A stretch of DNA of 64,000 bases, from positions 496,001-560,000 of the forward strand of contig CM065891.1 of NCBI GenBank assembly GCA_033439255.1. The letters run 5' to 3'. The DNA is from Hericium rajendrae. Taxonomy: Eukaryota > Basidiomycota > Agaricomycetes > Russulales > Hericiaceae. The notes beneath the pieces were generated by a model. The model ran no database searches. It saw nothing but the letters and a program-made list of their open reading frames with translations, and was not told the origin of the DNA. Shown piece by piece: positions 19,251 through 61,428 of this stretch (the stretch's first letter is position 1; every line of letters begins with the position of its first letter). Both the position numbers and the translations under genes were made by a program.

Positions 19251-19274
19251 GTCATCCACGTATGAAACAAATCA

Positions 19275-35848: not shown

Positions 35849-37789
35849 TAGAGGAGATAGACAACAGTGTAGTAGAGTTGGGGGCAGAGGGGATGCGAAA
35901 TCTGAGGATGGGAGGCTTCAATTAGCATGATTTATAGGAATCGTTGCAGACAACGCACAGTCGTGACCAGTCGAAATGACATGGCATGGGCAGCTTGGCT
36001 TCAGGGCAATCGCAATGCCACTGTGTCACTCGGCAAGAGATCGAGAATGTCCATCCCTTGTGAGTGGAGCTCGAATAGCTACCGAATGATATAGGAACGT
36101 ATCTCGTGAACAAATCCACAGCTGTAAATCAGAAAACTATTGAGTAAATGCAAGATATATATGCGGCCAGCTTGAAGAAGATAACACAATGTTCAGACAT
36201 GCTGGTCTGTTACCATAACATAAGGGCCTGCAGAAAAGATGAGAGAGTGAAGAGAAAAGTGCGCTAGCAGCGATCTCACCGTCTGACACCAGGCATCGAA
36301 GCGGGGAATCGGTTATATCATGCGACAGTACTAGTCACACACATTTGTCAGTAGTACCAAGTAGAAGAACTTATTGCACACCTGAATATGAGAGATAAGT
36401 TTAGGGCCAGATAATGAGCTAGCAAAGCTCGACACGACGACATACTCATAGCGACTGGAGACAAAAGTTTGAACGAAGCTGAAACGACGCACGAGTCTGG
36501 CTGCCGCGACCCGGCCCGGGCGCTGCCGGGCATCGTGTCAGAGGCTAAACGCCAGATTTCACTAAGTTCAGCTAAGTTCCTGTCACTGCCCAGTAGTTTA
36601 CAGTACATTGACTAGATAGCTCTCTCATTCATTCAAATTAAATTTACGAACTTCAACTACTGTCTTTTTTCTAGAATTTATGCTATTTGATTTGATTTAC
36701 TAAGTTGGAAGACATTCGAACTCACCCGTGTTCGGCAGCTGAAGCACCGAAACGCATCGAAGTGCACCTCTAGATCTCTTCCTCAGCCATCGTCTCCGAG
36801 CTCCCTTGTCACTGTTCTCAGCTGTTCCCTCCGTCCCCTCTCTGAATCGTCAAGCTCAATGGACCTTGACCTTCATGGTTGAGTGCTCAAGTGCTCACGG
36901 GCAAGGACTGTCCTTATCGCGGCCGACTCAACCTCCGTTTTGAATATGAAGAGCAACGAGAACGAAATCAGGATGCTCAGCCTGTCATGGCCTACTCCAG
37001 CCAGCCAGGTGTGTTTATTCCTGATCATTCCCTGCAGATCTAAATTATATCTTTACCTATCCAGCCGAAACCCACACCAGGCGACACGAAGCTCGCCGTA
37101 CGTCGAGTGCAGCATGCGCTTAGACCACGTCCACGATGTCTACGACGTCCACCCACTGCACGCGCACTTCACTGCATCCTCAAGTTCCTGCATGATCTTG
37201 CAGTGTCGCTGTGCTCGCATCACCCATACTTGGCTAATGTGGAGTCATCGGCAGCTACGACATCGACGAGAACAAGCTCTACCCACCCATTCGATGTCGA
37301 CTTCTACTCTCCTTACTGCGCCTCTACCGGCCGAAGGTAGCACCAGCACCAAATCCCTCCTTCTGCCTTCCACCTTCCGTGCGCTGGTAGTATCTTCGCG
37401 ACCAGCACAACCGATCAGCATTTGGTGCTGTAGTTCTTCGGAGATTGGCTCAATAAGTACTTTTCTTCAGTTCTCCAAGTCCTCAAGGCGCAGTGACTTC
37501 TTTCTTCTTGTCGTGCCCACCAATCATTGCTGTTGTGTCCAGGCTCCATCACCTGATCCCCTGCCATATGTTCACACTCAAGCAATCTCACTCATTGCAA
37601 ACCTCTTGCATGATAAATTTAAGCAAGAGGATAATCTATTTTGGCTCCTCGTCAACAAGCTCGTATGTTCTGGTCTTCCATTTATTGTTCAAGCATCTGA
37701 ACGGAATTGTAGGGCGATATTGAAAAAAGTGATTTGCTCGCATGCCATCTTCTGCAACTCCCGCAGTCATCCACGTATGAAACAAATCA

Positions 37790-38353
37790 TCATTCGCGAA
37801 ATGACCGTGCTTGTTCTCGTCCCACCGCCAGTGCTGGCAACCTCTCTACGCCATCTACCAGCTCGGGCGCCAAGCCCCAAATCCACTTCAGGTTGACGCG
37901 CCCGCCAAGTCTGTCCCGAAGGAGCAGCCGCGCGACCTCGCCCGCGACGACCCATGCGATGGGGCCCCAGCCGATGCAGTAGAACACGGCGTAGAGGTAC
38001 ACCGCAACGAGCAAGACGTACGACACAGGGACGATGTCCGGGCGTGGGTGCACGGTGCTGAACCTGCCGATCCAGAGCATCATGAGGCCCTGCCCGACGG
38101 AGCCGACGAGCAGGCACTTCTTGCGCCCGAGGCGCTCGACGGCGAAGATGAGGATGGAGCCGACCGCGACGACCTTGATGACGCCATAGATCCCCGTCGC
38201 GAAGAGGCCCGCGGACGTCGAGCTGAGGCCGAGGCCGGCGAAGATCTCCGGACTGAAGTAGTTGATCGCGTTCGTGCCAGTCCACTGCTGGAAGAACATC
38301 ACGAGCGACGGGATGAAGCAGCGCAGGACCGTGATGCGGCTCTTGCCCATCAT
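37790..38353 (-). pseudogene. Captured sugar-transporter fragment in hAT copy B
   Basis: Same fragment as at 19,275-19,838, still open, with substitutions such as VPVSYV for VPASYV and VVAGEV for VVTGEV. Confidence 0.8.
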
Positions 38354-38924
38354 CCTGAATTGCTAGGACCGCGCGGTGGCGCGCTCGCTGCTCGACTTGT
38401 ACTTTGCTTTATTCCACGAAGTCGTGGGTGAGTGCCCTGATCTCCATAGAAACATGGTCCCATTGGCAGCTCTCATCGTGTAGTCGCCCGGGGCGGTATG
38501 GTGATGTTTCTCCAGATATCACAACCCAGACACAACCCTCGAAAATCGAGCGTCGTCTCCCTCGCAGAGCCTGCTTCGTCTTTGAGCTGTTCGCGGTCAA
38601 CGTTTAACATGTTTGATTGTGCAACACAGAGGTAACCATACTATGTAGCGACAATATACTGTAGTTCTCGTTTTAGGGTGTTTATTTATATATTCATATC
38701 TACAGTATAAGACATTCAATAACATTCAATTGCATTGAATAATGGAGTGATACCATGACAGTAACTGATCCGCAGGTGACTCGGTGCTGCACGAGTACCC
38801 GTCCCACAAGTCCGGATCACCTGGTGGCGCAAACTCGTGCGGATCCAGGTCTGCACTCTGGCGAGCTTGGATACCTGCGGGTTCGGATCTGGGTCATCCG
38901 CGGGTGCACTCGTGTCGCACCCTA

Positions 38925-39198: not shown

Positions 39199-39829
39199 TA
39201 GGGTTCGACACGAGTGCACCCGCGGATGACCCGGATCCGAACCCGCAGGTATCCAAGCTCGCCAGAGTGCAGACCTGGATCCGCACGAGTTTGCACCACC
39301 AGGTGATCCGGACTTGTGGGACGGGTACTCGTGCAGCACCGAGTCACCTGCGGGTCAGTTACTGTCATGGTATCACTCCATTATTCAATGCAATTGAATG
39401 TTATTGAATGTCTTATACTGTAGATATGAATATATAAATAAACACCCTAAAACGAGAACTACAGTATATTGTCGCTACATAGTATGGTTACCTCTGTGTC
39501 GCACAATCAAACATGTTAAACGTTGACCGCGAACAGCTCAAAGACGAAGCAGGCTCTGCGAGGGAGACGACACTCGATTTTCGAGGGTTGTGTCTGGGTT
39601 GTGATATCTGGAGAAACATCACCATACCGCCCCGGGCGACTACACGATGAGAGCTGCCAATGGGACCGTGTTTCTATGGAGATCAGGGCACTCACCCACG
39701 ACTTCGTGGAATAAAGCAAAGTACAAGTCGAGCAGCGAGCGCGCCACCGCGCGGTCCTAGCAATTCAGGATGATGGGCGAGAGCCGCATCACGGTCCTGC
39801 GCTGCTTCATGAGCCGATGTAATAGAATT

Positions 39830-40450
39830 TGCTTAAGATCCTTGACTATGTAGTCACTGTTTAGCTTAAATATCTGCACGGCTGAATGTAGTCAACAATA
39901 TAGTCAATTTTTTAGTCACATAGATTAGTCGTACAATCTACTAGGATGTCTGGTATCATAGCAGTGTGATGGTATAGTAAACAGTCGGTGAAGCAGTCAG
40001 TCTGATAACAAGTCACCGAAATAGTCACTGTATATAGTCAAGAATATAGTGCTGTACAGTAGGTATGACTGCTTGCAAATAGTCAATCAACTAGTCACCA
40101 TCCGTAGTCACGGAACGAGTCGCCTACCTTGTGTAGCCGGTTCACTTAGTCGCAACGGGTGTGGACCTAAATGACCAGTGGCTTTCCAGCTATAGTCACT
40201 TTTAAGTAGTCGATAACAACAGTCAATACAGAAACAAAGTACTCTTACCAAAGACAGTCATACCGACCAGTCGCATATAGATAGTCATATCAACAAGTCG
40301 GTGTGAAGCAGTCATGCCAATTAGCTACAGCGAAGCAGTCATGTTTACAAGCCAAACTGAAATAGTCATTCCAACGAGTCAACACGGACTAGTCATGCCA
40401 ATTGCGAACTAGTCAAATCCAATGAAGCATTAACACGACTATGAGCATCA
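39830..40450. repeat. Left subterminal TAGTCA array of the KDZ element
   Basis: More than 25 copies of AGTCA/AGTCG words (TAGTCAC, TAGTCAT, AAGTCGG), mostly in one orientation and spaced 10-30 bp. Such arrays serve as transposase-binding sites in other DNA transposons. That role is inferred here. Confidence 0.75.
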
Positions 40451-40517
40451 GACCTACAGTTTATCTGGACCATCATCAGCAACATACGAAGTTCTGAAAA
40501 AGCTAAACTCACCTAGT

Positions 40518-41743
40518 CTAGTCAGAGTCCGACTCGATCTCAATCACGTCCGAAACCTGCTGGTAAGCTGGCTTGGATATGACCCGCCTTTTCCCTCTCG
40601 TACTCGAACACCCTTCTTCGAAGTCATCCTCACGAGTGCGCTTAAGGCGTTGTTGAGAACCGCTCGCAACTGGCTGTCGATCGAGTGCCTCTATGACCTT
40701 TGATCTTCTTTGACCTTCGTGAACCACAGCGGTCGAACGTTCTCGTCCAAGATCGTTCGATCCCAGGACATCACGAAGTCTGGCACGGAAGTCTTCAGCA
40801 TGCACATCTAGGTCTCGTCCCACAGAGACCTTGTGAAAGCGCCAGATAAACGGGACATCGGGAACGATGGGCTCCCATCGACAGTCTTTGACAACACAGG
40901 AATCCCATGAGCACTGAACAGGATCGAAGATGTCGATGATGTTGGTGGGCTTGATGTCGAACAACCTAGACAAGACAGGGATGTGATAGAGAATATTGAA
41001 TGTTTCAGCTTTCGGCCACGATAGTCGCTTCAAGATCGGAGAATGATCATCCTGCAGGACAAAGATCAATTTCGACCCTATGCCACCTTGAGAAAAGCAA
41101 CTCACCTGTGCGAAGAATACACTCAGGATACCTTCTTTCCCTTCATCACGTTTATCTTGCCCCTCGCGATCGCCAACGTACACCGTCGGTGACGATGGAA
41201 TCATCCACTGCGGGTCGAGTATATTGCGCAGAGGAGGCTCAGTTATTGCCCCGTGACGGGCCACCGAAATACCCTGTCGCTCTCCTGCGTGCCGTGGAGG
41301 CGAAGAATCCCAGCCATTTCTCACCTGTGGTAATGCTGGCCGTCCACCTCCCCCACGTCTTCCAGAACCACGGGGCTTCCCCAAATGCTCGCGCTTCGCA
41401 ATTGCTGCACCTTCCTTCGACAAACTAGCTTGCTCTGCTCGTGCACGGCGAAAACGCTCGATGAGTGCCAACTTTTCTGGAGAGAGATGGTCAGTTATCG
41501 CATTCCATCCTGTCGCACAGGTCTCCTGTTCACGGCACTTAAAGGCTGGTCAGCGGTATTGCGATCAAAGTATAGGTCGTGACGTACGATGTAGTACCAA
41601 CGCCCAACGTTGGCATTTTCAGTCTGGTACTGTAGTCCTGATGCTCGAAGTCCATGGTCACAGACAACATGAATAGGCTGGGGGCAAGGCCCTGCTAGCT
41701 TCTCCACAAATGCTTTGAGCTCAGGATCTGCTTTGGGCGACAT
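40518..41743 (-). CDS. KDZ cargo protein with GRF-like zinc finger
   Basis: Starts at ATG 41,743 (MSPKADPELKAFVEKLAG). Exon 1 ends at 41,588 and exon 2 starts at 41,525 (phase 0), giving NVGRWYYI joined to ETCATGWNAITDHLS. The segment VVCDHGLRAS...QTENANVGRWYYIETC has the spacing of a GRF-type zinc finger (Cys/His, T..N.GR.[FY]Y..C). A likely in-frame intron follows at about 41,105-41,052 (GTGAGT...CTGCAG). The C-terminus is basic, then acidic (VIEIESDSD). GRF fingers bind nucleic acid in other proteins. Its job in the transposon is unknown. Confidence 0.55.
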
Positions 41744-42105
41744 GGATGGCAGAGGGGTAGGAGGAGAATGGGAGCAAAAGGGTATCGACCGGAGGAAGAG
41801 ACATTGCTATATATTCACCAGACAATAAATGATCAAAGCATCATCAGCAAGGCCGCATACCTCGAACAATAGCTTGGGCCCATTCACTTTGCCCCGGAGC
41901 CACAATTGATCTCTCCACCACCCATTGCCACTCGGCCAAAGCGAGAACTACAGCCGCAATCGACTTCCCCACCACTGATAACCATCCGGTCAAAGCGAGA
42001 ACTATTGTTCATTGTGCAGCACGATAAGAAGTAACCCATTTCTACTATCTAATACAATTTATCCTGCGCAGAATATTACCATATCAATTTGTCTGATCCA
42101 GCGGA

Positions 42106-44200
42106 TTATCTCCGGGAACCCTTGGTCCGTGCTGCTTTCTTGCGTTTGGACTCCGGCTCATCCTTCTTTGCTGTCACCTTCGTGTTCGTTTTCTTCGTCG
42201 TGTTCGTTTTCTTCGTCGTGTTCGTTTTCTTCGTCGAGTTCACTTTCTTCGTTGTGATCGCTGTCTTCGCACGTTTGGACATCGGAGGTTGGTCCTCAGC
42301 ATCAGGTGCCTTCCGCTTCCTGAAGTTTAAGAAATAATAAGAACGTGCATCCAAGATAATGAAGGAAATGAACTAACCTGAGTCGTGAAGAAAGTGGAGC
42401 CTCTGTACTCGGTTCGGCAAGCGTAGAGTGAGCTTGGATACGTCCTGAGCGGCGCCGTTCACTGTCAACGCCAGCCGATTGGCGTTTAGAGCGGCGCGAG
42501 GCCGTCGCTACCTTATCAACGTCACCGGTCTGAGAAGAGCGTAGCTGCTTCTCGAGCTGCGGTGGGATATGGCCTTGGAAAGTATGGCCATCGTCAATAT
42601 GCACACTCGAGACCTCATCTTCGTCCTTCTCCCCATCATCACTCCCCTCGTCCTCATGGCTCTCCTTGTCGCTGTGCTCGGCCTCGACCTCCGCACCGTG
42701 GTTCTCACCATCCTCGATCTCAGAATTCTCCTCGTCCTCGTCCTCGGCCTCAGCATCCTGCTCACAGTCAACATGTCCTCGGTCACCAGCTTTCCCCTGG
42801 CTCTCGCCGTGTCCCGCGCCCTCGGTAATCAAGCCACTTGCTTGTCCAACAGGGTCGTCTTCATCATCCGAGACGTCCACAATGCGACGAGGCGTGCATC
42901 GAAGCCTGCGTGATGGGGAAGGCTGCACATCAGATTCATCATCGGAACCTTGGGACGCATCTGCAAGACGGCGGGGGAAAGGGAGGCGCAGACGGGTCAT
43001 CGTAGATGTTCGGGATTCTCGCAGGGCAGACTGAATAGCTTTCCCCTTCCCCTTGCTTCGCCTCGGAGTCATAAATTCCTGTGTTTGAGAACGAACAGGT
43101 GTACTGAGCGTGGGATGGGCGTCCAGGGTAACAGGAGCATCCTTGCTAGGCGAGAGAGTCTGTGAACGTGCCCTAGAGGCCGCGGGCGAAGGGAAAACGT
43201 CCTCCAGGTAGGTTTTGAATGTATCGGAGAGGAGGACATCGGGAGATTGAAGCGCGTCGATAAGGGGGACGAGAATCGACCCATCAGGTCCAAAGGCATC
43301 GCTATCAGAAGGACGTCAGCGCAAAGATAGGTGTGGCATATCAGAGTACCTACACAGTCATTTGCAATATTCCCTGGTCATTTCGATACCCTACAACAGA
43401 GCACATCACCACATTGCACTGCTCAGTCCAGGCTCGGCCGTGGTGTCGAATGGTGCTATTCAAATTTCGTAGTTGTCTACGGTTGAGCAAGAGATCAGTA
43501 AAGTCACAGTGGACACGGTATAGCAACCTACTCGATACGTTCGAGATCTGACTTGGAGATGCCTTCCCGCTCCGCTGCAAGAATTTGGGCTGCCTTCTTC
43601 TCCTTCTTCCTTTCGTGAAACTCCACCTTTGCAGTGGCGGCACGATCCTTCCATAGCTTTAGAGTGTCCGGGTCTTTGAGCATCTCAGTGAGCTCTTCGT
43701 TGATACGAGCTTGAGCGCTTTTCATCCTTAGGACCTTCTTGACGAATCGCCGCCAAACGTTCTTGAACCTGGGAGTCTTTCTGCATGAGGTCTCGCGCGC
43801 TGGGAGCGCGATTGTTGCCAAGATCCGCCGCCTTGAGGGCGAGAGGCTTTGGTTTGGAAGATCTGGCGGGACCATTGCTCTTGCCTTCCAATATACCCTT
43901 GACGTGGTTGGAGAGCCATTTCCGAATACGCTAGAGGAACGTGAGGATGAAATGCGAACACAAATAACCAGAACTTACGGGATCAAGTTCTCCCATGCGC
44001 TCCTGCACCTCTTCATCGGTTTCCAAAGTCCCGTCCTTCTTTCCTCGTGGGTTGGCAGGAAACTCAGAGCGGAAGTCTTTGATCAACTCCTTCTTCCACT
44101 TCGTAAGCTCGCCTTTCTGTTTGGCGGTTGCATGGCTTTCAACAACTCGTTCGCAGAGCCAAGTGTATTCCTCGGGCGTTGTCCACCGCTCGTTCGGCAT
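42106..44200 (-). CDS. KDZ cargo protein, charged nuclear-type
   Basis: A spliced minus-strand gene. Exon 1 starts at ATG 44,200 (MPNERWTTPEEYTWLCER) and ends with GELDP before a GTAAGT donor. Later exons encode a helical Lys-rich region (KVLRMKSAQARINEELTEML) and DAFGPDGSILVPLIDALQSP. A long acidic stretch (DAEAEDEDEENSEIEDGENH) follows, then a basic tail with TKKTNT repeated three to four times, ending at 42,106. I could not fix every junction. Near 43,740-43,800 the helical part is in a different frame from the exon before it. The N-terminal RWTTPEEYTWL segment recurs in unannotated Agaricomycete proteins as far as I recall. Function unknown. Confidence 0.5.
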
Positions 44201-44490
44201 CGCTTGAGAAGTAGTCCAAGAACAGAAATGCGTTAGACAGCAGAATGGGCGGAAAGAGCGCGGAAAGAGGATTAGACTCACTGCGACATGCCTAAGCTTT
44301 TATTTCAACAGATAATTCAAGTCTGGCAACTATGGTCAAGGCACCAGACAATAACGAGCAAAGCGTAGTCACATACCCGGAGGGATTGCCACCGGTCTAC
44401 ATCGGTCAAAGCTAAGGTCCACATAGGTCAAACCCAGGATTCATATCCTCGAAATGCAGGAGTGAGACAAACAATAGCACGCCACAGCGC

Positions 44491-44690
44491 TCTGACGATG
44501 CACCGCTTCGACGCACTAGGCGTGGAGTCGATTGGTGCAGCATCGCTGTGTAAAAAGTGGGTCGGATATACTGACGAGGTAGTGTGGTGGCGGAAGATGG
44601 ATGGGTATGGTATGGGTACGCCGATTTTGAGGCCCTGACAACGCACCGCCCGACGCACTACGCGTGGAGTCGATTGGTGCGACGCCGCGG
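44491..44690. repeat. Pair of ~50-bp direct repeats in KDZ cargo region
   Basis: Two copies (about 44,491-44,543 and 44,635-44,686) share CTGACRAYGCACCGC and CGTGGAGTCGATTGGTGC. A related word, CACGCGTAGTGCGCTCAG, appears twice again at about 45,850-45,980 near the opposite-strand gene start. Possibly a shared regulatory motif. Confidence 0.4.
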
Positions 44691-44859
44691 CCATGAGCAA
44701 TCCTAGAAAGAAAGAAAACCACTGGGCCAGCAGGGGTATAGACAGCAAAAGAAATTATACGAGGAGGGAGGGATGACACAAGGCATACTTCGGTCTACAC
44801 TATACTAACTGGAGCAAGCATCATATTGGATATTTTTTGATATGTAGTAAATGCGTACC

Positions 44860-45185
44860 TTTGAATGGAGTACGACTTGAAGGCCAACGCCGGTCCAGGG
44901 GTGGGACAGGTCATTATCCTGTTCTCGTATCAATAGCTTGTCAGCGCCCTCAAACTGCGCTTACCTGCTGTCCTTCCTAACCGTACATACTCCTCGTTGT
45001 CCACTGCAGGTGCTGTGAGGCTGGCGCTTGACTTTCCTTGCTTGCGAGAAATGGCCCGGCCGACCCGCATTTCTGGCGATTTGGGCTGGATGGGTGCCGT
45101 TGACTGGTAAACGGTTGCTACGTGTGGTCTAACTTGACAGATTGAGAAGGATTGAGAGAGCACTTACAATGCGTTGTCCAGCCAT
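44860..45185 (-). CDS. Small hypothetical KDZ cargo gene, uncertain model
   Basis: ATG 45,185 gives MAGQRI, then a GTAAGT donor. An acceptor before STAPIQPKSPEMRVG opens a basic exon ending EEYVRLGRTA. A further junction may lead to DNDLSHPWTGVGLQVVLHS and a GTACGC donor. One intron would be only about 41 nt. No domain is recognised and the 3' end was not found. Confidence 0.3.
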
Positions 45186-46119
45186 CCTAGATCACCGGGA
45201 CTGTTGATTTGGGCGCGGACTAGTGATAGTTTTTGAGGCTAGTAAAGGGTAATTGCAGAGATAAAGAGAAGGGTCATAGAATACCAGGAGAGAAGGGATT
45301 AGAAGGTGAATACTTGGTGTCCGAGTTTGAGTGCGTCGAACAAGCCGCGAATTCACGTAAGCGCTGAGCGCCAGCCAAGTTCCGCGTAAGTAAAGGGCGG
45401 TCGCAGTGCTGCAGGGAGCTCAAATCTATTCTAAATTACACCAAAGTTAGTAGATAGAGTCTTTAGATACTCCTGTACTCGATCATGGGCTCACATTTCC
45501 TTAGTCAATTCTCGCACTGCCATTATTTGAGGATTTCTGAACGGGCGCCAATACCCTCCGCGGCGCATTATGTCATCATCGAGCCGCTCAAGCAGTCGCC
45601 GCCGCCTCGTGTTCGTACTCGTACTCTCTCCTCGAATCTCCTCCACCTTCACCTCCTTCCCTGTTTTCCTCACCGTGCTATTGCCTCTAGCTCCGTTATA
45701 TTAGGCTCTATACCATTTCGCTCGACTATTTATATCAAATTCGTGAGTAATCCTGTATATCTTGGAGAACTACTGATTGTAGGCTTTAGGTCTTGCCGTT
45801 ATTCTGTACCCCCTCTCCATTCCACGTCGCCTTCTATCAGGTATCGTGTGCAGGGAACGAGCTTCACACGCTGTGCGCTCAGACCCTGCATACAACACCT
45901 TCAATTCCTCAGACTCCCTCTCGCCTTCTAGCAGGCTTAAAACATAAGGAACGAGCTTCACGCGTAGTGCGCTCAGACCTTATCTCCACGGACACTCGCC
46001 TCTCCGCACCTCTACTAAGTCTCTACTGTAGGGTACGACCCGGATACACAAGGTAAACATATATGCTTAGATATATGGTAATATCACTCATCAAGTTATT
46101 GACATGTCAGAATACCGTC

Positions 46120-48108
46120 ATGGCTGGTGCCCCACGCCCTTTCGATATGCCGTATGCGTGCTGGGCTCTTGGATGGGGGGAACAGGAGATGGTCGTAGCA
46201 GCACACACGACCTACATTCCTCAATTGCCAGATGACGAAAAGGCTCTGGTTCGCAGCGATGGCTTGTGGGGACCACACGACTGGGTCCGCTTCCCACAGC
46301 CCTTCGATTATCAGTATCCATACCTGGCTTGGATACGTTTACCTACTAGAGAGTACTCATCCTCCATCCTGTATCGTTTGCCTACACGGTCCGATGTGTC
46401 TCCGCATCCAGTTTATCCCCGCGCCTTGTGTTGTCCTCTGAGTGGATCGAAGATTTCCACAAAGAGCGGGACATCCTTCTAGGCGAGGCTCAACAGTGTC
46501 TTTCTCAGATCATCAACTTCCCTCCATTTCGACATGTTTGTTTCCCATCCACCGCACCTCGCCGTATTGCATCGGCCTTAATTCGACTCAAGGATACTCC
46601 GTGCTTCTGGCGAGACATCGTCGAGGGTGTTCGAGCAGTTCAGCGTCACCTGCTCGAACTTCAAGCGTTCTGCGACTGGTTTAGGTCCAGTGCTTTAGAA
46701 CAGCGTATAGTAACGCCCAGGCTTACTCGTGGCAGCATTACCACGGACCCTCGTGTGTACCAGATGCTCGAATCCAATCATATCACCGCATTCCTTCGCC
46801 TTCCTGTCTCCCACTACCACCCGCTCCGATCCGGCGATCAAAAGGGCCTCCTGTGCTTGGTAGACTGGTGCAACTTTGTCGGTGCCGACTTCAAGGAATG
46901 GCGGGATCAGGGAGTACTAGCGGGATCAGTCGAAGATCACACCAAAGACCTCTGGTATTATCCGCCCTCCCCAGCCAATGATCCCCTATTCGAGAGAGCG
47001 GCGCGAGGCTATGCCCGGCGTCGTGATAGTAAACATCTTACGCAGAGAGCTTTGGGAATGCAAATGCGCCGAGATCAAGATCGTAAGTAGTGCTCTACTT
47101 CATATACACATCTTTCTTACGAAGAGATACTAGTCGCCCATGAACGCAATGTTATCAATGCGTCACGGCCCAAACACACTCAAAATAGCCGACGTATCCA
47201 AAACTCAGTCGCTCCTCCGGATGTGGGTGCCGAACATCATTGAGACTTGGCATCAATGCGTTGCGAACACCGTCCCTATCTTCACGGACCAGAACCTGAC
47301 CCGCGGCTGGCCGTACCATCTACCGCCAATCCATCTATTTTGGGGTCCAGCAGAAGAGAAGGCACGCGAAACTTTCTTCTACCATTGGTTCTGTTTGGCA
47401 CGGGTGTGGGATTTTCGACATGTCATCTACCGCAATCTCGCCTTTTCGCCGTCCGAATGGCGATCGTTTTTAGGTGACGCTCACTGGAAGCGTCAATGGC
47501 CTAAAGACCGGCAATACCAGCCAGACAATTTCTGGGCCTATGGCTCCGACTCTTTCTTTGGCTCTCTGTCTTCGAACATCACAACTATGAATATCATTAA
47601 TCGTCGACTTTCTTGTGGCTGCAAAGCCAGTCCTAATGTATCTTACGACCCCGCCAACCGCACAATCATCCTCTACAAGCTCAACATGGCACATATCTTT
47701 TGGGAATTCGAACATCACGACGAGCTTCAAATCTCAGCGGAAGATTGGGACGAGGATCGGCGTAGCGGGCGGGCAGAGCAACGGAGAAAGGTTTGGCCAC
47801 ATGGTCCGAACTACGGCGACATTGAGATCGAATATGAGTATGGTTGTCAAAAACAGGACTGGCGCGATAGGATGCTCTGGTTTGAAGACCTTAGAAAGAT
47901 CATGTCGTCATGGAAAGGTTTTCCTGCCATTCTGAATTTCTCTCTTATCTGTTTGAACCGAGACGACTATATGGATCGTGAGTTGAAGTTGATTACGTTC
48001 TACCAGGACTCTTTCGTTTCTGTACATGGTCTTCTCCCCTCCCTTCCCATGCAGAGAGTGGTTGAACGTCCCCCGACATGTATGCATAATGTTCTGTATA
48101 CTTTTTAG
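46120..48108 (+). CDS. KDZ cargo protein of unknown family, two frame changes
   Basis: From ATG 46,120 (MAGAPRPFDMPYACWALGWG) the protein passes through WVRFPQPFDYQYPYLAWIRL. Near 46,420 it must change frame to reach LSSEWIEDFHKERDILLGEA. After HLTQRALGMQMRRDQD there is a GTAAGT intron (about 47,086-47,133) to LAHERNVINAS, and near 47,215 a second frame change leads to LRMWVPNIIETWHQCV and IHLFWGPAEEKARETFFYHW. The frame closes at 48,108. The layout and Trp-rich motifs resemble a large unannotated family common in Agaricomycetes, as far as I recall. The two frame breaks suggest decay or read errors. Function unknown. Confidence 0.5.
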
Positions 48109-48437
48109 ATCGGCTTGTTTGCATTGTTCTCTTTCTTTGCTCTTCGATTACTCAGAAACAAAGCGCGTTCATTGTTATTAATACCCGAGCGCACGTTTCT
48201 CTTTCTCTCGCATTGACAAAAACTCTACAGGTAATGGCAAAACACGTAACGAGGCCCGGCCACAATAGCAGGCTACTTGCCACTCGGCCCTGCCATTGGC
48301 AATCGCAGTGACGCAAATTGTTTTAGTTGGTTGACGTGTTCCCCACACTCTTTAGTCCGAGTTCTCCCTCCTGGCAGCTCGCTAACGCCTCCTTCGTGCT
48401 TTCTTTTACAGGTCGATTCGCGCATACCTGCTTCACC

Positions 48438-51400
48438 ATGGGCAAGAAGCGAAAAGCTGCAGAGCCACTGCCAACGCCTATTGCTCTGTCGACCGGAATC
48501 TTAGTAGGTGGAGTCGGTGCAAACGGGTCAGCCAGAAAGAGTCACTTTCACGAGGAACCGAGCCCCAGGAAGAAACGTGTTCTAGAAGTGCCACCATCCT
48601 TGGCTAATGAACGAGACCAAGACAGTTCGATGGGGATAGTGGAGGACGACTTTATTCCAACGCCGGGGGAGAAGTCTGCAAGTGGCACGGTGCGTATCTT
48701 GCTCTGTCTTTCTGACGACTCGCGCTAACCATTAAACAGAAATCTATGAGTGAGGCGACAGACGAATTCCTCAATAACTGGGCCCAAAAGTACCTCCAGA
48801 TTCTTCACAGTCGATATCACCATGCCGACGCCGGGAAGACATGTTCTCAATGCCTAGGCGAAGATGCGCTCTATCGATGCACGGAGTGTTTTCACGCACA
48901 TATGCTCTGCTCGAAATGCATTGTTGAAGCCCATCGCCAAGACCCTTTCCACGTTATCGAGCGTTGGTCGGGTTCGTACTTCGAGAAGGCTACCCTCAGT
49001 AGCCTCGACTTGGTGATCTACCTGGGTCACAATGGTCTTCGATGTAGCTCTTCTAGACGAGCTCTGGTGGAGATCATGTGTGTTCATACTACTGGCATCC
49101 AGAACTGCAAGTTCGAATTCTGTGGCTGCAACCATCTGGACACGTATGAGCCTCTTGAGCGGCCCTGTCAACTTCTACGGGTTGGCCTTTGGCCCGCTTC
49201 CTTCAAACATCCTCGCACTGTCTTCACGCTCCATCTCCTCCGTCATTTCCACCATCTCTCTGTACGGGCAAAAGTCACTGCGTACGATTTCTCTGCTGTT
49301 TTGCAGCGCCTGACGAATAATCCCTTCCAAGGGGATGTTCCGGTATGCTGCCTTGCCATTTACTGCGTGCATTACTAAGACTGTAACAGGACCGATATAG
49401 GCAACTTCTATGTGCCTCTCGGTATTTTGATTTCCTACAAACGTTGAAGTGGCATGGTCGCAACGCGACTGAGCCGCTTGAACCCGGCTGTCTAGTGCCG
49501 ATGTGTCCAAGTTGCCCATTAATAGGCATCAATATGGACCCCGATTGGGAGAAAGCTCCCGCAGACTCCATGTAAGCTCTCATCGTCTGTAGAGCAATCT
49601 CGATAACCCACAACACTTCCAGGTATTTGCATGCGCTTCGTTATGCAAAGGACGGCAACTTCTCAAGCAGCCTGCACAATAAGCCTATGGACCACAATGA
49701 CCGTCCTTTAACACATGGTGCCGCCTTTTTTGCCAATGAAACTGATTATCAAAATTGGCTCGAGCAGTGCCCCCAGAATGCGAAGGCTGAGGTATGTCAT
49801 GATGTCATCGATTCCGGGAATAGTCGTTAACCTGACGGGAGCCAGACGTCAACGTGTAGTTCCTTCAAAGCCTTGACCAATCAGTATTCGGGCAAGATCG
49901 TATCTGGAATTTTGGCGCTTGCGTGTGCACGATCCGGTATGATCATGGCAAGTGGTGTGGTTGATCTCCCGAAAGGCGAGCGGTGAGTGTCATTCTTGAT
50001 GCGTGAAAACACAGTAGCTTACTTTCTGGAACATAAGGTACTGCAGCGTAGACTTTGCAAAAGTCTCCGCAACGCGCCGATTTGTTTTACTCCTCCTTTG
50101 GTATGAATACTACGATATCGTATGTCAGTACATGATCAACTTCGACAAACGCATGATGGATTTCCCTGGTGCTCCAGTATTTCCGAAGACTCATCATCTG
50201 ATTGGTTCGTATCATCTGCCGGGTCACATTAAGCCCGAATGCAAGACAAAGCACAATGGTCACTTCGTCCCTGGGACGGGCCATACAGATGGCGAGGACC
50301 TGGAACGCCTTTGGTCGGTCCAGAATTCGATTGCGAGAAGCACGCGGGAGATGGGAGCTGGGCATCGACACGATTCGTTGAACGGGCATATGTCTGACTA
50401 TAATATGCAGAAAGTATTCAAAGAAGGCAAGTTCTGACGACACTTTCATTCCACGCAAGGCATTGCTAACTGCTGTTTTCCCCTTTCAGCATCCCTACTT
50501 ACAAGACGTTTCAAGCGAGTCCATGCAAGGCTTGATACAGACCAAGCGAGACTAGAGGACATGGAAACATCATTGACGGAACGTGAAGCCCCGTTGCAAG
50601 ACTGGCATGAGCAGGAGCAAGACTGGTTGCAAAAAGTCAACGATCCATATTGGAAGCGAGAAGATATCACGAACCCGTACGAGCCCGCGGAGGACAAAGG
50701 TACTGTCCGTACTGCTTAGCCATGAAGAAAGTACTCATATCTCCTAGCGCCAACACAAAAGCAAGCCTTGGCAGAGCTCAACAGGGAGAACGAGCGACAT
50801 CGCGCCGCGAATGGAATAACCGTTGAGCCCAGTCACCGTTTAGGGCAGATGGTGAAGTTTGCAATGGATATCGAACAGAAGCAGTGAGTGCGTGCTACAT
50901 TGTATATTGACACCTAAAAATAACTCCACTCAACAGACGAAGGATTCATATGCAACTTCAAGAGTACGAAACAAACAAATCAGACACGATCTATAACGAG
51001 CTCGAACTTCTACGCCAACGATTAGCTGAAGACATAGAAGAGTGGGAGGCTCTATATTCAGACTCTCTAGGTCTTATTGTCGAGGAGCTGGAAACACTTC
51101 GAAGTTTTGCTTCCACCGCGTGGCCTCCAATGCCATCGGTACAGCGCTGCAACCCTGAGGACGTCTCCCTACCAGTTCCCTCACAGCATCCCCCACTCAT
51201 TCGTCACTGTGCACAATTTGCTAAGGCGATAAGGACAGAACTTCTACTCCGTGAAGGTCATGCAAATGATCTTATTCGAGATATAAAGAAAAGTTCCGCT
51301 ATGCGCGGTTTTCTCTGGCGATCAACTAAAGATACTACAGGCCAAAACAGCAAGACTCGCAATGGTCAAATTCTATCTACTGCTTCATCCAGACTCGAAG

Positions 51401-52022
51401 CTCTTCGACAAGAATATGAACGCACTCGATCAATACTGATCGTCCTCGGCTCTGACAGTCACAACTATAAGCCACTTCGCCCAGAGGACTGCTACGCGCC
51501 GACCGTGTATCATGGCGCTCGTGCGAAGAGTAGGAAAAAGGGAAAGGACCAAGCGAGTGAAGGATCATGGATTTGGCAAATGGGCTCCTATCGTAGTTCC
51601 TCAACAGATGCAGCTGCTGACGAGTGGCTGATAGAATGTGAGTAGCAATTGGAAGTCGTGTTGAATTGATACTAACATAAGCTTTTGGAAGATGAAAGAG
51701 TCAATTGGTTCAGACAACGCGCTGCAGTCGCGCGGTCAAAAGAGCAGAAGAATCTGCTCGAAGTGGAGATGCGACGAACACAGCGGACGTTCCGTAGTTG
51801 GTACCGCCAGTGGAAAGCGAAAGCAGACGTTCTGCTTGCCAGTAGTGATCCGGTCGATAAGGGGCAAGGAAGTTATGCCGCAAAGTACGTCTGTCAATTG
51901 TAGCAATATCCTGATGCTTACAGAATTTTGGTAGGCAAGCGAACATGTGGAGAGGGCTATTCCATGAGGCGCGATTGCTCTTTCCAGAGGAGCAAAGGCG
52001 ATCGTTTGACGGTGACGATTAA
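48438..52022 (+). CDS. KDZ transposase with CxC2 cysteine cluster
   Basis: ATG 48,438 starts a basic leader (MGKKRKAAEPLP). The first intron is 48,690-48,739. The CxC2 cluster follows: TCSQCLGEDALYRCTEC, MLCSKCIVEAHRQDPFH, then HTTGIQNCKFEFCGCN. The KDZ core includes QLLRVGLWPASFKHP, AYDFSAVLQRLTNNP, CPSCPLIGINMDP, YLHALRYAKDGNF, TCSSFKAL, GERYCSVDFAK, YYDIVCQYM, SYHLPGHIKPEC and GTGHTDGEDLERLWS, in family order. A long coiled-coil C-terminus ends at TAA 52,020-52,022. About nine short introns fit the frames. KDZ enzymes mobilise DNA transposons with 8-bp-class duplications. The conserved Asp/Glu motifs are present, so it may be active. Confidence 0.88.
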
Positions 52023-52132
52023 CATCTTATGTAGTTGACTATGTAGCCCTGCAAAACGCGAGTTTTATAGGTTTCCAGCATATTTTTGACACACACAGAT
52101 GCTTTATCTGCTCTGAACATCTTACGTGCACT

Positions 52133-52302
52133 CCATTCTCGCGTCTGTTCATCACATTCTCGCGGCGGCTCATTGCATTCTCGCATCTGCTCATCACGTT
52201 CTCGCGTCTGCTCGTTGCATTCTCGCGTCTGCCCACCGCGTTCTCGCGTCTGCCCACCGCGTTCTTGCCTCTGCTCATCGCATCCTACACCTCTGCTCAT
52301 CA
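52133..52302 (+). repeat. 21-bp minisatellite, about eight copies
   Basis: The unit CATTCTCGCGTCTGCTCATCA recurs in tandem with substitutions, just after the KDZ transposase stop. The last copies degrade to CATCCTACACCTCTGCTC. The period is divisible by three, so a long frame exists, but this is probably not a gene. Confidence 0.85.
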
Positions 52303-52355
52303 CGTCCTACATCGCACTGGTATATCTTGCTATTGGAACCTCACTCTAGTACCTC

Positions 52356-52917
52356 ATGTCCGCTCTCAAACTCACTTTCAACGCGGTACTCGTGTCCTTA
52401 GCAGCCCTAGCCCGTAGTATGACACGATGCGGTGTCCACGATGAGGACGAGCTCATCCAGCAAGTCGTGCGGGAGGGGGAAGATGGGATTATCAGCATGA
52501 CAATCCCCCTGATAGTGTAAGTCAGATGATGCTCGTGTTCTTATGGTTTTGACTGAGACTACATTCAGGGTCACACCGCCAGATGCTGATCCCGCCTTGT
52601 GGATCGAGCGTGCGATCAAGCGAGCGAATGCCCCGGCCTCGCGCATCCCGATCCCGAAAGGTGGATTAACGTCGGCCAGAAGGGGGCGACAAATCTTAGA
52701 GCAGATGTCTGATGGTGTGGAGCGCGCTGTAGCTGAAGCAGCCATGCTTGCGCGGGAGGAGGCGAATGAGATCGTGGCTGAAGTATATGAGAGACTGGTA
52801 GCCAGGCGGGAGCAAGAAGCCATCCAGCGGGATATCATCTCAAATACCATGGCTATCATGACGGAGTCGATGCGTGACAGTCCGGAGGCTTCGGAGGGCG
52901 AGGAAGAGAGTGCGTAG
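52356..52917 (+). CDS. Small helical KDZ cargo protein
   Basis: Two exons. ATG 52,356 (MSALKLTFNAVLVSLAAL) runs to a GTAAGT donor after IPLIV. The second exon begins VTPPDADPALWIERAIKRAN and ends at TAG 52,915-52,917 after EASEGEEESA. The product is about 165 residues, with a hydrophobic N-terminus and a long charged helix (AVAEAAMLAREEANEIVAEV). It lies 330 bp after the transposase in the same direction. Not recognised. It could be an accessory protein of the transposon. Confidence 0.55.
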
Positions 52918-53293
52918 AGGTGAAGGGTACGATGGATCTTCTTGTTCTTCTTGTTTACTTGCTGTGATATCGTGTAACAATTATCCTCCGAAGTCGTATG
53001 ATCCAGTCACTATTACAGTTGTCGCTTGGTGATCTAGACATCCGATGAATCACTAAGGACGTTGTGCTGACTGCTCAGAAGGCGGGCGATGGCTCATGCT
53101 CTATATTCGCGAGGATACCTGGCAGGTACGGTAGTTATCCTTTCTCAGCGAGGGATAATTGTTGACTAGCTTTGCATAGAAAACCTGCCGGTCGCGGAGT
53201 TGCACGACAACATCATCGGGCCTGACATCAAATAGATCAAACTCGTCGACGAGTTCAAATAGGACTACAGCATGTAAGTGATTCTACTCGTAG
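52918..53293. other. KDZ element interior, no gene recognised
   Basis: Short spacer. Fragments such as GELHDN/IKFDELV-like words at 53,190-53,270 may belong to the decayed gene that follows, but no continuous frame exists. Confidence 0.35.
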
Positions 53294-53790
53294 ATGTGTT
53301 TTGTTCAGCGAGTGATCGAGGTATTCAATGCCCAGCGTCGACAACATAACGACGACTACGAAGCTGCTGTGGAAGATTTCAGCAACGCCATCGAGGAAGC
53401 CGACGCCGGATCCGCCAAACGTTCCATTAAGCTTTTGCTACACGAAGCGAACGACCTGTTGGATGCTCAGAAAAATGAAAAGAAAGATCATTACACGATT
53501 CTCGGTGGGAACTTCGGCCTTCGTTCTCTCACATTACATTCATAGCTTGAACAGGTCTTGCTCGCGCGGGCTCGCAGGCTGAAATCAAGATGGCATTCAG
53601 ATAACAGAGTATGAAGCATCATCCAGACAAGGTATGGTCTAATGCCAATGGCATGACTTGTTTCCGAGTGCTGATGACAAGCTGATGAATCTCGGAGCGG
53701 AAATGCATAAAAGTTCAAACTCTTGGCCGAGGCTTACAGCATCCTTTCGGACTTGGAGTAACGTAGGATATATGACATGAAGATGCCATC
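53294..53790 (+). pseudogene. Decayed DnaJ (TPR-J type) fragment carried in the KDZ element
   Basis: Reads FNAQRRQHNDDYEAAVEDFS, a TPR-like repeat, then LLLHEANDLLDAQKNEKKDH leading into the J domain start DHYTILG. An intron (about 53,508-53,552) joins it to GSQAEIKMAFR, an in-frame stop, QSMKHHPDK (the HPD motif), and later FKLLAEAYSILSDLE, a second stop, and RRIYDM. The order is that of a DNAJC7-like cochaperone C-terminus. Two stops make it non-functional. Confidence 0.7.
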
Positions 53791-54640
53791 GTACGAATAC
53801 GACAGTTATACTGGGCCGTCCTGCGTAGAAACGTTTGACGAGCGCTACACATACGACTCTGCTCATTTTGATTGGGCTTGGTTTTGGTTTTGGTTCTCTA
53901 AATTCTGTCCTCGCAGCTTTTAATGCCGCCCGATAAGCTTCGATACTCCTTACCTTGTATCAATATCCGTTCGATGCGTATCTGATTTCTTGTCTTACAG
54001 AATTGCGCCAGGCCGCGCACTAGAAAATGACTTCATGCTGAACTTGAACATCATCAGAATCCACATACAGTGCTTGTAAAAGATCGAAGCGTATCAGGAG
54101 GGACAGCTCGCAAGGAGGTTCTACAGAATACGGATGCCCAGAAGGGCGAATCTCTTTGCGATATTAAGACACTCAGGCTATCTTACATCTAGATTCCAGA
54201 ACGACCTTCCCGATGTCGGCTTCTCGACTCCCCCATGCTGCAAGACCTGCAGTCTTTTCTTTTCCGTGTATGTCGTGCGAGGTAAAGGTTCTTACTCGAT
54301 GCATAATCTTCGGGTACTGATTTCCATTCATGTTCATGACACTACTTAGGAGTAGAAGTTTCATACGTGACAGGTGTGTACGCGATACTCTAGTCCACGG
54401 TGATTACCATCTACGTCGTCTCTAGGCTCCCTCTTCACCCATCAAGCCAAAAGCCAAAGTATGTATTGCATTCAAGAATGTCCCACGGCTCTAACATTGC
54501 TTGTGTTTGAACAGTTTTGACAGCCGATACTGGTACTATAGCATATACGTCCACGTGGAGGGCCCATTCATAACACCATCTCCTCGAGTTCAGCTAACCT
54601 GATGGTCGGAGAAGGCACCGCAACTTTCGCGGAAGCAGTA
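53791..54640. other. KDZ element interior, decayed sequence
   Basis: No intact gene. The stretch probably contains further remnants of the DnaJ gene and of the following peptidase, but frames are too broken to name. Confidence 0.35.
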
Positions 54641-55230
54641 CGCATCGTCTTTGCTCATCTGTCTCTAAGCTTTACATCTTCACAAATGCTGACCTGCCGC
54701 ACACAAAGCTCATCACCGTCGACCCAAACGACTTCATCGAGAACGTGTCAATGTATTGTGCATTCAAATTCCGAGTCTTGACTCGCTCCTACAGGGTACC
54801 TTTGTAGTCGCCCAGAACCGCCTGATACTCAGTTACAAGTGAAACGTGCACGGCATCATTAATCCGTTTATCGGATTATACAGCCCACTCATGGTGCCGC
54901 GTAGGTCCAAGACGAGCTGTACGTGCATTCACTCGAGATTGTCATGCAGCTGAAGTGCCTCATCCCCGAGCCCGTTGGTGCAGTTTTATTTGGGCTGGTC
55001 TGACCAAAATTGTATCTTTGCGCAGGTCGAGACATTCGTGTCATCGGGCACTGTGCTGAAGTACGACTTCAACGAGGGCGCGGAGGGGACGAGGCCATGT
55101 GGCGCAACATGATCGTGCATGGCCTCATGGCGCAGGGCAGCTTCGTGACAGAGCAGGTGTGGTATGAGAGCATGGACGGTACAAAGATCCCGATTTTGTT
55201 GTGCAGCATGAGAGGAGGCCGTCACTAGAC
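54641..55230 (+). pseudogene. Decayed prolyl-oligopeptidase fragment carried in the KDZ element
   Basis: Pieces in collinear order match the propeller-to-hydrolase part of an S9 prolyl oligopeptidase: SKLYIFTNADLPHTKLITVD, then FVVAQNRLILSYK followed by a stop, then FAQVETFVSSGTVLKYDFN, then TEQVWYESMDGTKIPILL (family form: Q..Y.SKDGTKIPMF). Frames shift between pieces, and the catalytic domain is absent. It is inside the KDZ TIRs, so it was carried or captured by the element, or was trapped when the element's end was redefined. Confidence 0.65.
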
Positions 55231-55384
55231 GGGAGGATGCTTGCAATCCAAGTATGGTGCGTTAGTTGGTCTCGCTGGATGGCATGTAGTTTTGACAAGG
55301 CAGTGTAGGGTACAGCCGATACAAGATCTCGTTGGATCTGTTCGAACGCAGGTCTGTCACCTTACACTGCTGCTGATGCTTTGC

Positions 55385-55860
55385 TCATTTTGTCATTTGT
55401 ACAAGTCATCTAGTCATTGTTTAAGTCATAAAATGCAGTCGTTATCCTAGCTTGTTGTATATAGTGACTTATTCTTAAGAATGTGATGTAGTCATAGGGT
55501 CTAGTCACTAAATTGTCTAGTCACTATCTGTAGTGGTTCACTACTAGAGAATAGGCATTCGGTTCAAATAGTCATGGAAAATGTAGTCAGTGGAAGTAGT
55601 CATATTGTCATTCAACTTCGGTCAATTATCTAGTCTAATTGTCTAGTCACTATCCATAGTGGTTCAATACCAGGGAATAGACACTCGGTTCAAGTAGTCA
55701 CATAAAAGCTAGTCATTGGAAATAGTCATATTTTCATTCAATTTCTGTCACCGATCTAGTCTACATGAACAAAATAAACAATCATCTACTTTAGTCACAA
55801 GAAACTAGCCTACAAAGTTGCTTAAGGTTACTGTGATTAAAGGGTGACTAGCTAGTCACC
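55385..55860. repeat. Right subterminal TAGTCA array of the KDZ element
   Basis: More than 20 AGTCA words (TAGTCAC, TAGTCAT), including two copies of a longer unit (TCTAGTCACTATCYRTAGTGG, about 55,515 and 55,645). The array lies within 500 bp of the right TIR and mirrors the left array. Confidence 0.75.
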
Positions 55861-55890
55861 TTGCTTAAGCCAATTCTGTTGCTACCCCAC

Positions 55891-56420
55891 GCTTCATCCC
55901 GTCGCTCGTGATGTTCTTCCAGCAGTGGACTGGCACGAACGCGATCAACTACTTCAGTCCGGAGATCTTCGCCGGCCTCGGCCTCAGCTCGACGTCCACA
56001 GGCCTCTTCGCGACGGGGATCTACGGCGTCATCAAGGTCATCGCGGTCGGCTCCATCCTCATCTTCGCCGTCGAGCGCCTCGGGCGCAAGAAGTGCCTGC
56101 TCGTCGGCTCCGTCGGGCAGGGCCTCATGATGCTCTGGATCGGCAGGTTCAGCGCCGTGCACCCACGCCCGGACATCGTCCCTGCGTCGTACGTCTTGCT
56201 CGTCGCGGTGTACCTCTACGCCGTGTTCTACTGCATCAGCTGGGGCCCCATCGCATGGGTCGTCGCGGGCGAGGTCGCGCGGCTGCTCCTTCGGGACAGA
56301 CTTGGCGGGCGCGTCAACCTGAAGTGGATTTGGGGCTTGGCGCCCGAGCTGGTAGATGGCGTAGAGAGGTTGCCAGCACTGGCGGTGGGACGAGAACAAG
56401 CACGGTCATTTCGCGAATGA
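55891..56420 (+). pseudogene. Captured sugar-transporter fragment in hAT copy C, cut by KDZ
   Basis: The same fragment as in A and B. Its first residues (GKSRITVLRC) are on the other side of the KDZ element at about 39,765-39,810. After the insertion duplication it reads SLVMFF-type sequence through QQWTGTNAINYFSPEIFA to VVAGEVAR. Confidence 0.78.
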
Positions 56421-58361
56421 TGATTTGTTTCATACGTGGATGACTGCGGGAGTTGCAGAAGATGGCATGCGAGCAAATCACTTTTTTCAATATCGCCCTA
56501 CAATTCCGTTCAGATGCTTGAACAATAAATGGAAGACCAGAACATACGAGCTTGTTGACGAGGAGCCAAAATAGATTATCCTCTTGCTTAAATTTATCAC
56601 GCAAGAGGTTTGCAATGAGTGAGATTGCTTGAGTGTGAACATATGGCAGGGGATCAGGTGATGGAGCCTGGACACAACAGCAATGATTGGTGGGCACGAC
56701 GAGAAGAAAGAAGTCACTGCGCCTTGAGGACTTGGAGAACTGAAGAAAAGTACTTATTGAGCCAATCTCCGAAGAACTACAGCACCAAATGCTGATCGGT
56801 TGTGCTGGTCGCGAAGATACTACCAGCGCACGGAAGGTGGAAGGCAGAAGGAGGGATTTGGTGCTGGTGCTACCTTCGGCCGGTAGAGGCGCAGTAAGGA
56901 GAGTAGAAGTCGACATCGAATGGGTGGGTAGAGCTTGTTCTCGTCGGTGTCGTAGCTGCCGATGACTCCACATTAGCCAAGTATGGGTGATGCGAGCACA
57001 GCGACACTGCAAGATCATGCAGGAACTTGAGGATGCAGTGAAGTGCGCGTGCAGTGGGTGGACGTCGTAGACATCGTGGACGTGGTCTAAGCGCATGCTG
57101 CACTCGACGTACGGCGAGCTTCGTGTCGCCTGGTGTGGGTTTCGGCTGGATAGGTAAAGATATAATTTAGATCTGCAGGGAATGATCAGGAATAAACACA
57201 CCTGGCTGGCTGGAGTAGGCCATGACAGGCTGAGCATCCTGATTTCGTTCTCGTTGCTCTTCATATTCAAAACGGAGGTTGAGTCGGCCGCGATAAGGAC
57301 AGTCCTTGCCCGTGAGCACTTGAGCACTCAACCATGAAGGTCAAGGTCCATTGAGCTTGACGATTCAGAGAGGGGACGGAGGGAACAGCTGAGAACAGTG
57401 ACAAGGGAGCTCGGAGACGATGGCTGAGGAAGAGATCTAGAGGTGCACTTCGATGCGTTTCGGTGCTTCAGCTGCCGAACACGGGTGAGTTCGAATGTCT
57501 TCCAACTTAGTAAATCAAATCAAATAGCATAAATTCTAGAAAAAAGACAGTAGTTGAAGTTCGTAAATTTAATTTGAATGAATGAGAGAGCTATCTAGTC
57601 AATGTACTGTAAACTACTGGGCAGTGACAGGAACTTAGCTGAACTTAGTGAAATCTGGCGTTTAGCCTCTGACACGATGCCCGGCAGCGCCCGGGCCGGG
57701 TCGCGGCAGCCAGACTCGTGCGTCGTTTCAGCTTCGTTCAAACTTTTGTCTCCAGTCGCTATGAGTATGTCGTCGTGTCGAGCTTTGCTAGCTCATTATC
57801 TGGCCCTAAACTTATCTCTCATATTCAGGTGTGCAATAAGTTCTTCTACTTGGTACTACTGACAAATGTGTGTGACTAGTACTGTCGCATGATATAACCG
57901 ATTCCCCGCTTCGATGCCTGGTGTCAGACGGTGAGATCGCTGCTAGCGCACTTTTCTCTTCACTCTCTCATCTTTTCTGCAGGCCCTTATGTTATGGTAA
58001 CAGACCAGCATGTCTGAACATTGTGTTATCTTCTTCAAGCTGGCCGCATATATATCTTGCATTTACTCAATAGTTTTCTGATTTACAGCTGTGGATTTGT
58101 TCACGAGATACGTTCCTATATCATTCGGTAGCTATTCGAGCTCCACTCACAAGGGATGGACATTCTCGATCTCTTGCCGAGTGACACAGTGGCATTGCGA
58201 TTGCCCTGAAGCCAAGCTGCCCATGCCATGTCATTTCGACTGGTCACGACTGTGCGTTGTCTGCAACGATTCCTATAAATCATGCTAATTGAAGCCTCCC
58301 ATCCTCAGATTTCGCATCCCCTCTGCCCCCAACTCTACTACACTGTTGTCTATCTCCTCTA

Positions 58362-61189: not shown

Positions 61190-61428
61190 ATTAGCAGCAG
61201 TAGTAATGCGAATAAAAGTTTTGACTCATGGCTTAGTAATTGGGTTCTAAATTGCGGGTCATGCGCAGGTAACCTGCAGGTCAACCCGTCTGAACAAAGC
61301 TTCCAACCTGGATCTGTGCAGGTCTCAGCCACCGAGTGACTCGGATCTGTGAGTCAGATACTCACGGGTCAATTTCACGGGTATACCCGTGCTGACTCGC
61401 AGGTGACTCGGAATCGTGTCTTTCCCTA

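Follow-up and report, generated by a model that had tools for sequence, protein, structure and literature searches.

A complete KDZ transposon of Hericium rajendrae that very probably moves as one unit and captures host DNA in its right arm

Introduction

Our study concerns a KDZ transposon of Hericium rajendrae, found in a 64,000-nucleotide stretch of genome assembly GCA_033439255.1 (contig CM065891.1, positions 496,001 to 560,000, hereafter the window), and several similar systems have been described in other fungi. According to the accessible passages of the reports, the Kyakuja elements of Laccaria bicolor are TET+ and have 7-bp duplications, CA..TG ends and no terminal inverted repeats (TIRs) (Kojima 2025, PMC12730594), KDZ1-KDZ3 of Cryptococcus neoformans are about 9-11 kb long, with CxC1, TIRs of 139-241 bp and duplications of 4-8 bp (PMC12810828), and in the KDZ-type transposons of Pleurotus ostreatus a CxC2 cluster stands ahead of intact transposases (PMC7641404). 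In fish, Zisupton elements have F-box domains for which transposon capture is one possible origin, as stated in the accessible part of that report (PMC12062965), and they therefore provide a precedent for KDZ-type elements associated with host domains.

The element of the window shares with the KDZ group the KDZ domain, the CxC2 cluster and a 7-bp target duplication, which falls within the 7-8 bp of the group and matches in 9 of the 15 copies that we identified. Among cut-and-paste transposons, gene capture has been described best in plants, chiefly for non-autonomous elements. In the titles, abstract openings and passages of the open-access literature that were searched, we found no report of KDZ elements capturing host gene fragments.

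Results

The element interrupts one of three hAT copies in the window (copy C), while its sister copies A (14,267-20,409) and B (32,783-38,924) run uninterrupted through the site and have a single gcttcat at the equivalent position. When one gcttcat was deleted and the flanks of copy C were joined, the resulting 6,143 bp aligned to copy A with 30 mismatches and no gap, and to copy B with 24 mismatches and one gap. An earlier note, made from the letters of the window, had proposed these limits, this duplication and these two empty sites, and the alignment through the joined site bears them all out (Table 1). The same note had described TIRs, opposed TAGTCA arrays and a full CxC2-KDZ transposase, and these claims need correction to different degrees. 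A 14-bp core, AGAATTNGCTTAAG, is indeed inverted at the two ends as the best part of imperfect inverted repeats, but 13 bp separate it from the terminus on either side, and the outermost bases agree only in part. The forward and reverse counts of TAGTC (19:3 on the left and 15:1 on the right, with mononucleotide-shuffle means of 0.70 and 0.56) give both arrays the same direction, and opposed arrays are thus ruled out. In the copies read, the termini are GAG..CAC, with one C7 end deviating by one base, and not the CA..TG of Kyakuja.

As for the transposase (gene 4), both domains are present in the exons of the window (CxC2, PF18803, E=1.8e-28; KDZ, PF18758, E=2.6e-27), but a full protein was not recovered there: the mechanical gene models end early, at 346 amino acids in the window and in C5, and at 190 in C1. 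A 945-amino-acid CxC2-KDZ model was obtained from the C6 copy, the one without a host insert, and the KDZ domain of this spliced model scores 137.5 bits. The copies that carry host fragments also have KDZ and CxC2 exons, a complete frame being modelled only in the insert-free C6 copy. The ratios of nonsynonymous to synonymous divergence (dN/dS) of the transposase exons are 0.02-0.27, at lower dS than those of the accessory genes described below. The genome contains 172 KDZ matches above the cut-off, and a search of a phage collection with the transposase gave no match.

All copy counts come from this single genome, which was searched over 46.77 Mb in 19 contigs. The left 690 bp of the element retrieved seven further copies at 93-94% identity and seven more diverged ones. 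A search for the core allowing at most one mismatch gave 78 matches, against 28 for the reversed control; 30 of the 78 are exact, and the matches pair into 15 elements, 13 of which are exact at both ends and two of which, on C10, have one mismatch at the right end; exact left cores at C5:2,881,233 and C6:3,234,046 stay unpaired. Nine of the 14 other copies were read end to end (two each on C1, C17 and C7, and one each on C18, C6 and C5), one C10 copy was read in its right part, and the rest by their ends. The nine measure 13,569-19,526 bp, and none of them ends at a point within 39,811-55,890. Full-length copies with the same genes at other sites, which the earlier note had expected of a unit that moves as a whole, are therefore present: the KDZ exon and each of four accessory genes (genes 1, 2, 3 and 5) occur in all 15.

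The matching 7-bp target duplications comprise eight distinct sequences, and four of the six copies with mismatched flanks can be traced to sister copies. The two inverted C7 copies carry each other's duplication halves (ggcgcat and gccggtc), a pattern that suggests a 65-kb inversion by recombination within the elements, of which it is the expected result. The copy at C17:29.9k is flanked on its left like the C1/C18 copies and on its right like the other C17 copy, and the sequence bordering C5:1,018k on the right is the left duplication of C5:1,546k; no partner flank was found for the right side of C5:1,546k, nor for C10:1,994k. The C1:13.8k and C18 copies have their target duplication and flanks in common, which points to segmental duplication. 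Along the C17 chimera, 106 informative sites assign the first 11 kb to the C1/C18 type (43:23) and the remainder to the C17 type (30:10), a noisy signal. These observations suggest that the mismatched flanks arose by recombination between copies, the 65-kb inversion included. Both the flanks and the chimeric copies might instead be assembly errors among near-identical copies, in favour of which are identities of up to 99.6% and the noisy parent assignment along the C17 chimera; we regard this explanation as rather unlikely, since the two C7 copies have exchanged their flanks reciprocally and without deviation at either side.

The modules of the window also differ in their nearest relatives. 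Genes 1 and 2 are near the C1 and C7 types (dS 0.03-0.19, with one exon at 0.41), gene 3 is near C5/C6 (dS 0.02-0.14, versus 0.81-0.97 to C1/C7), the transposase exons stand at similar, short distances from C5 and C1 (dS 0.08-0.13), and gene 5 is distant from all versions (dS 0.9-1.2). To judge from these divergences, the subfamilies have exchanged modules.

In the right arm of the window, about 2.2 kb (53,027-55,262) is degraded host DNA. The earlier note had remarked that the cargo of this element looks different; it does include a variable part, but this consists of the host-gene fragments at 53.0-55.3 kb, which that note overlooked. The C6:1.884 Mb donor has a prolyl oligopeptidase domain according to Pfam, and the alignment to it passes, by eye, through an apparent donor intron. 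Pfam finds TPR and zinc-knuckle domains at the C2:3.93 Mb locus, which we take to be DnaJ. The C1 type, whose region is present in five copies, contains a GMC oxidoreductase locus (C1:4.91 Mb, 83-90% identity in the main pieces) enclosing a fragment of C5:2.02 Mb (94 and 85%), with junctions that abut at single bases; this fragment gave no Pfam match and is presumably MUB1-like. The C7 type has a PLP-enzyme locus (C10:0.572 Mb, 78-82%) that is interrupted at a single base by a 1.5-kb stretch of C7:2.01 Mb (83%), which we assume to be carrier-like and which also lacks a Pfam match. Of the PLP locus, the C5 copy read contains the left piece, along with pieces of the C7 locus, the C10 copy read has GMC as its single donor, and in the C6 copy read gene 5 runs directly into the right array, with no insert. 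A second donor is thus nested in the first in three subfamilies. With six unlinked donor loci, there must have been six captures or more, provided that the shared pieces are inherited, and the 3' flank of the GMC locus and the apparent intron indicate that the captured material was DNA and not mRNA.

Stops or frame breaks are present in the fragments of the window, C10 and the C7 type, and the dN/dS of fragments against their donors is mixed (0.67-0.84 in three comparisons, lower in the other seven). In the C1 type, a fusion frame that joins the GMC start to the C5-locus fragment is open for 433-445 amino acids in four of the five copies and for 222 in the fifth. In the window and in the C1, C7 and C10 types, the host DNA lies between gene 5 and the right end of the element, starting at the inner edge of the right TAGTC array or slightly inside it, so that genomic pieces of host genes lie between the element ends, as in Pack-TYPE capture. 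An alternative is that these fragments arrived with transposons of another kind, such as Helitrons, that landed in the right arm and can no longer be recognised, and that the KDZ element captures nothing. The accessible part of one report documents Helitron capture in mushrooms (PMC4289320), and two of our copies hold unrelated additional inserts of 3.5 and 1.66 kb; however, in the four types whose junctions were examined, differing fragments meet the same inner array edge, with element or donor sequence flush on both sides, which makes this origin unlikely, although no search aimed at Helitron ends was made. The 3.5-kb insert, in the minus-strand C7 copy (element positions 4,574-8,107), is internally repetitive and has CATAGCTGG at both sides, and the 1.66-kb insert, of no recognised kind, lies within the captured C7-locus fragment of the C5 copy.

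Special attention was given to the four accessory genes. The genome searches score the best candidates only, so that an absence elsewhere is no proof; among these candidates, gene 1 has one decayed place outside the family, the first exon of gene 2 has 15 matches, all in family copies, gene 3 has relatives beyond the 15 at 65-73% and others at 26-32%, and gene 5 has four additional relatives. Where dS between versions is about 0.6-1.2, dN/dS is mostly 0.10-0.42, and the values that climb to 0.62 at very low dS carry little meaning. By gene, we obtained 0.13-0.18 for gene 1 (window against C6/C5), 0.30-0.64 for gene 2 (against C6/C5, the upper value from one exon), 0.10-0.19 for gene 3 (against the C1/C7 types) and 0.27-0.31 for gene 5. 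Certain copies have in-frame stops, such as one in gene 1 of C7 and two in gene 3 of C5. On the evidence of these ratios, the accessory genes are mostly under purifying selection as parts of the element, and because they are also present in every copy, they look like core accessory genes and not loose cargo.

Few similarities to known domains were found. Gene 1 has a 51-bp intron in C6 and C5, and its spliced C6 model shows a GRF-like pattern below the Pfam cut-off (E=0.027); the unspliced gene has no Pfam match, and a search of PDB sequences with gene 1 gave none. Genes 2, 3 and 5 have sub-threshold Pfam matches only and are therefore left unnamed, including gene 5 as DUF6397, which was rejected because its match (E=0.00058) is under that family's cut-off. 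The second exon of gene 3 had a single match among PDB sequences (E=0.39), and the AlphaFold models of two gene 3 exons are of low confidence (mean pLDDT, the per-residue confidence score, 31.8 and 33.8). Ten of the 14 distant relatives of gene 3 lie within 10 kb of a sampled KDZ gene, whereas random placement, repeated 2000 times, gave 0.96 on average and never more than 4; one of the ten pairs involves an own-family KDZ gene outside that element, so that nine count. The sample comprised 80 KDZ rows, from which most own-family rows and many near-identical ones were excluded, and the extent of contig C9 was assumed. Relatives of genes 3 and 5 also stand within about 1 kb of each other at C3:1,669,051-1,670,942 and C7:432,357-434,253, with no space for a transposase between them; these pairs are possible non-autonomous derivatives.

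The earlier note had listed the four genes as travelling cargo. They do travel, being in all 15 copies, but a conserved core fits them better: that they benefit the fungus, with the element as a vehicle like the cargo-carrying giant transposons, would agree with the purifying selection and with the lack of known transposition domains in them, yet it is improbable given their presence in every copy, the near confinement of genes 1 and 2 to the family, and the distant gene 3 relatives near other KDZ genes, which fit a role for the element. The absence of a TET/JBP gene, which that note had reported for the window, holds for the whole family, since a Tet_JBP profile search of the genome (46 matches, 38 above the cut-off) placed none inside the 15 element intervals. 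KDZ genes of other families have a TET gene about 2-3 kb away in several cases, one example being C8:1,206,107 and C8:1,208,561.

Regarding the neighbouring repeats, the 8-bp flanks of the three hAT copies are shuffled, as seen by eye. The right flank of copy A (atgtttgg) is one flank of copy C (39,199-39,810 and 55,891-61,428), whose other flank is the left one of copy B (ccaagacc), which suggests inversions between hAT copies too. A word one base off the core, ACAATTGGCTTAAG, occurs at 16 places in the genome and probably represents the terminus of a sister family.

Table 1. Features of the KDZ transposon in the window (positions in the window).
Feature	Position	Strand	Basis
Complete KDZ transposon, 16,080 bp	39811..55890	+	Target duplication, two empty-site hAT copies, 15 copies with both ends
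Left 7-bp target duplication, gcttcat	39804..39810		
Right 7-bp target duplication, gcttcat	55891..55897		
Left inverted core, AGAATTTGCTTAAG	39824..39837	+	Genome-wide core search
Right inverted core, AGAATTGGCTTAAG	55864..55877	-	Genome-wide core search
Left TAGTC array	39811..40530	+	19 forward, 3 reverse
Right TAGTC array	55361..55890	+	15 forward, 1 reverse; same direction as left
Gene 1, GRF-like zinc-finger protein (weak match)	40518..41743	-	15/15 copies; dN/dS; sub-threshold Pfam match of C6 model
Gene 2, unnamed, acidic C-terminal part	42302..44200 (candidate last exon towards 42,106)	-	15/15 copies; dN/dS
Gene 3, unnamed	46120..48108	+	15/15 copies; dN/dS; distant relatives near other KDZ genes
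Gene 4, CxC2-KDZ transposase exons	48438..51645	+	Pfam domains, dN/dS, gene models
Gene 5, main exon, unnamed	52516..52917 (putative start 52,356)	+	15/15 copies; dN/dS
Captured prolyl oligopeptidase fragment, first piece (donor C6:1.884 Mb)	53027..53365	+	77% identity
Nested captured DNA related to C2:3.93 Mb	53366..54660	+	Pieces 53,545-53,633, 53,755-54,255 and 54,332-54,660 at 73-74%
Captured prolyl oligopeptidase fragment, second piece	54667..55262	+	73% identity; AAGCT overlap with first piece

Discussion

The 15 copies have common ends, mostly 7-bp duplications, and in every case the KDZ exon and four selected genes; in several subfamilies, unlinked host-gene DNA, much of it decayed, stands at the inner edge of the right array. 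We are highly confident that these copies represent a complete KDZ transposon that moves as one unit and captures host DNA at its right array, and whose copies recombine. Several points weigh against this interpretation. The copies were compared within one genome, and no movement event was observed; six of the 15 have non-matching flanks, and the transposase model of the window is incomplete, though its KDZ exon is open. The identity between the window and its donors is just 73-77%, and the C2-related pieces are ordered differently from today's C2 locus, for which reasons the true donor may be a paralogue. A low dN/dS of fragments (0.26-0.39) does not by itself show decay, as it may mirror selection on the donor, and the junction overlaps of 0-6 bp are the sole basis for template-switch repair.

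The KDZ transposase would cut at the element ends with a 7-bp stagger. In the simplest reading, whenever the right arm, rich in repeats, suffers a break or a transposition gap, the damage would be repaired by copying ectopic templates, and host filler would persist where its insertion harms no element gene, the right-arm stretch being the only one that leaves the genes whole. Recombination between long copies would then swap modules and rearrange chromosomes. We tentatively propose, as a possibility that falls short of even odds, a KDZ family with a capture site, in which the TAGTC-rich right arm serially takes up host fragments, the later lying inside the earlier in three subfamilies, while a selected gene set is retained, including a zinc-finger protein of GRF-like type and a protein family that other KDZ elements also have. 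If true, such elements would shuffle exons and, when their 16-kb copies recombine, drive chromosome rearrangement, of which the swapped target duplications are direct marks. In this little-studied superfamily, elements that bear transposase exons occur within one genome in three states, lacking a donor, having a single one or having two that are nested, from which the succession of captures can be read and tested. The four selected genes in place of TET/JBP suggest that KDZ elements have more than one route to success in their host.

Compared with known systems, as far as the accessible passages of the reports describe them, our elements resemble plant Pack-TYPE transposons in having host coding DNA that moves along between transposon ends, although those are non-autonomous elements of plants, whereas the carriers found here have transposase exons and belong to a different superfamily (PMC8903248). 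The gene-capturing Helitrons of Pleurotus are likewise mushroom transposons with host gene fragments, but they are rolling-circle elements and ours is a KDZ element with 7-bp duplications (PMC4289320). The order of CxC2 before the KDZ transposase is shared with Pleurotus ostreatus, for which the accessible passages describe no ends, accessory genes or captures (PMC7641404). KDZ1-KDZ3 of Cryptococcus neoformans are also whole KDZ elements, and their movement was demonstrated; they differ in their CxC1, TIRs and duplication lengths, and the accessible part of their description mentions no captured host DNA (PMC12810828). Finally, Kyakuja of Laccaria bicolor has in common with the present family a KDZ-group transposase, 7-bp duplications and an Agaricomycete host, but it combines CA..TG ends with TET/JBP and no inverted repeats, whereas the Hericium element combines GAG..CAC ends with an inverted core and four other genes (PMC12730594).

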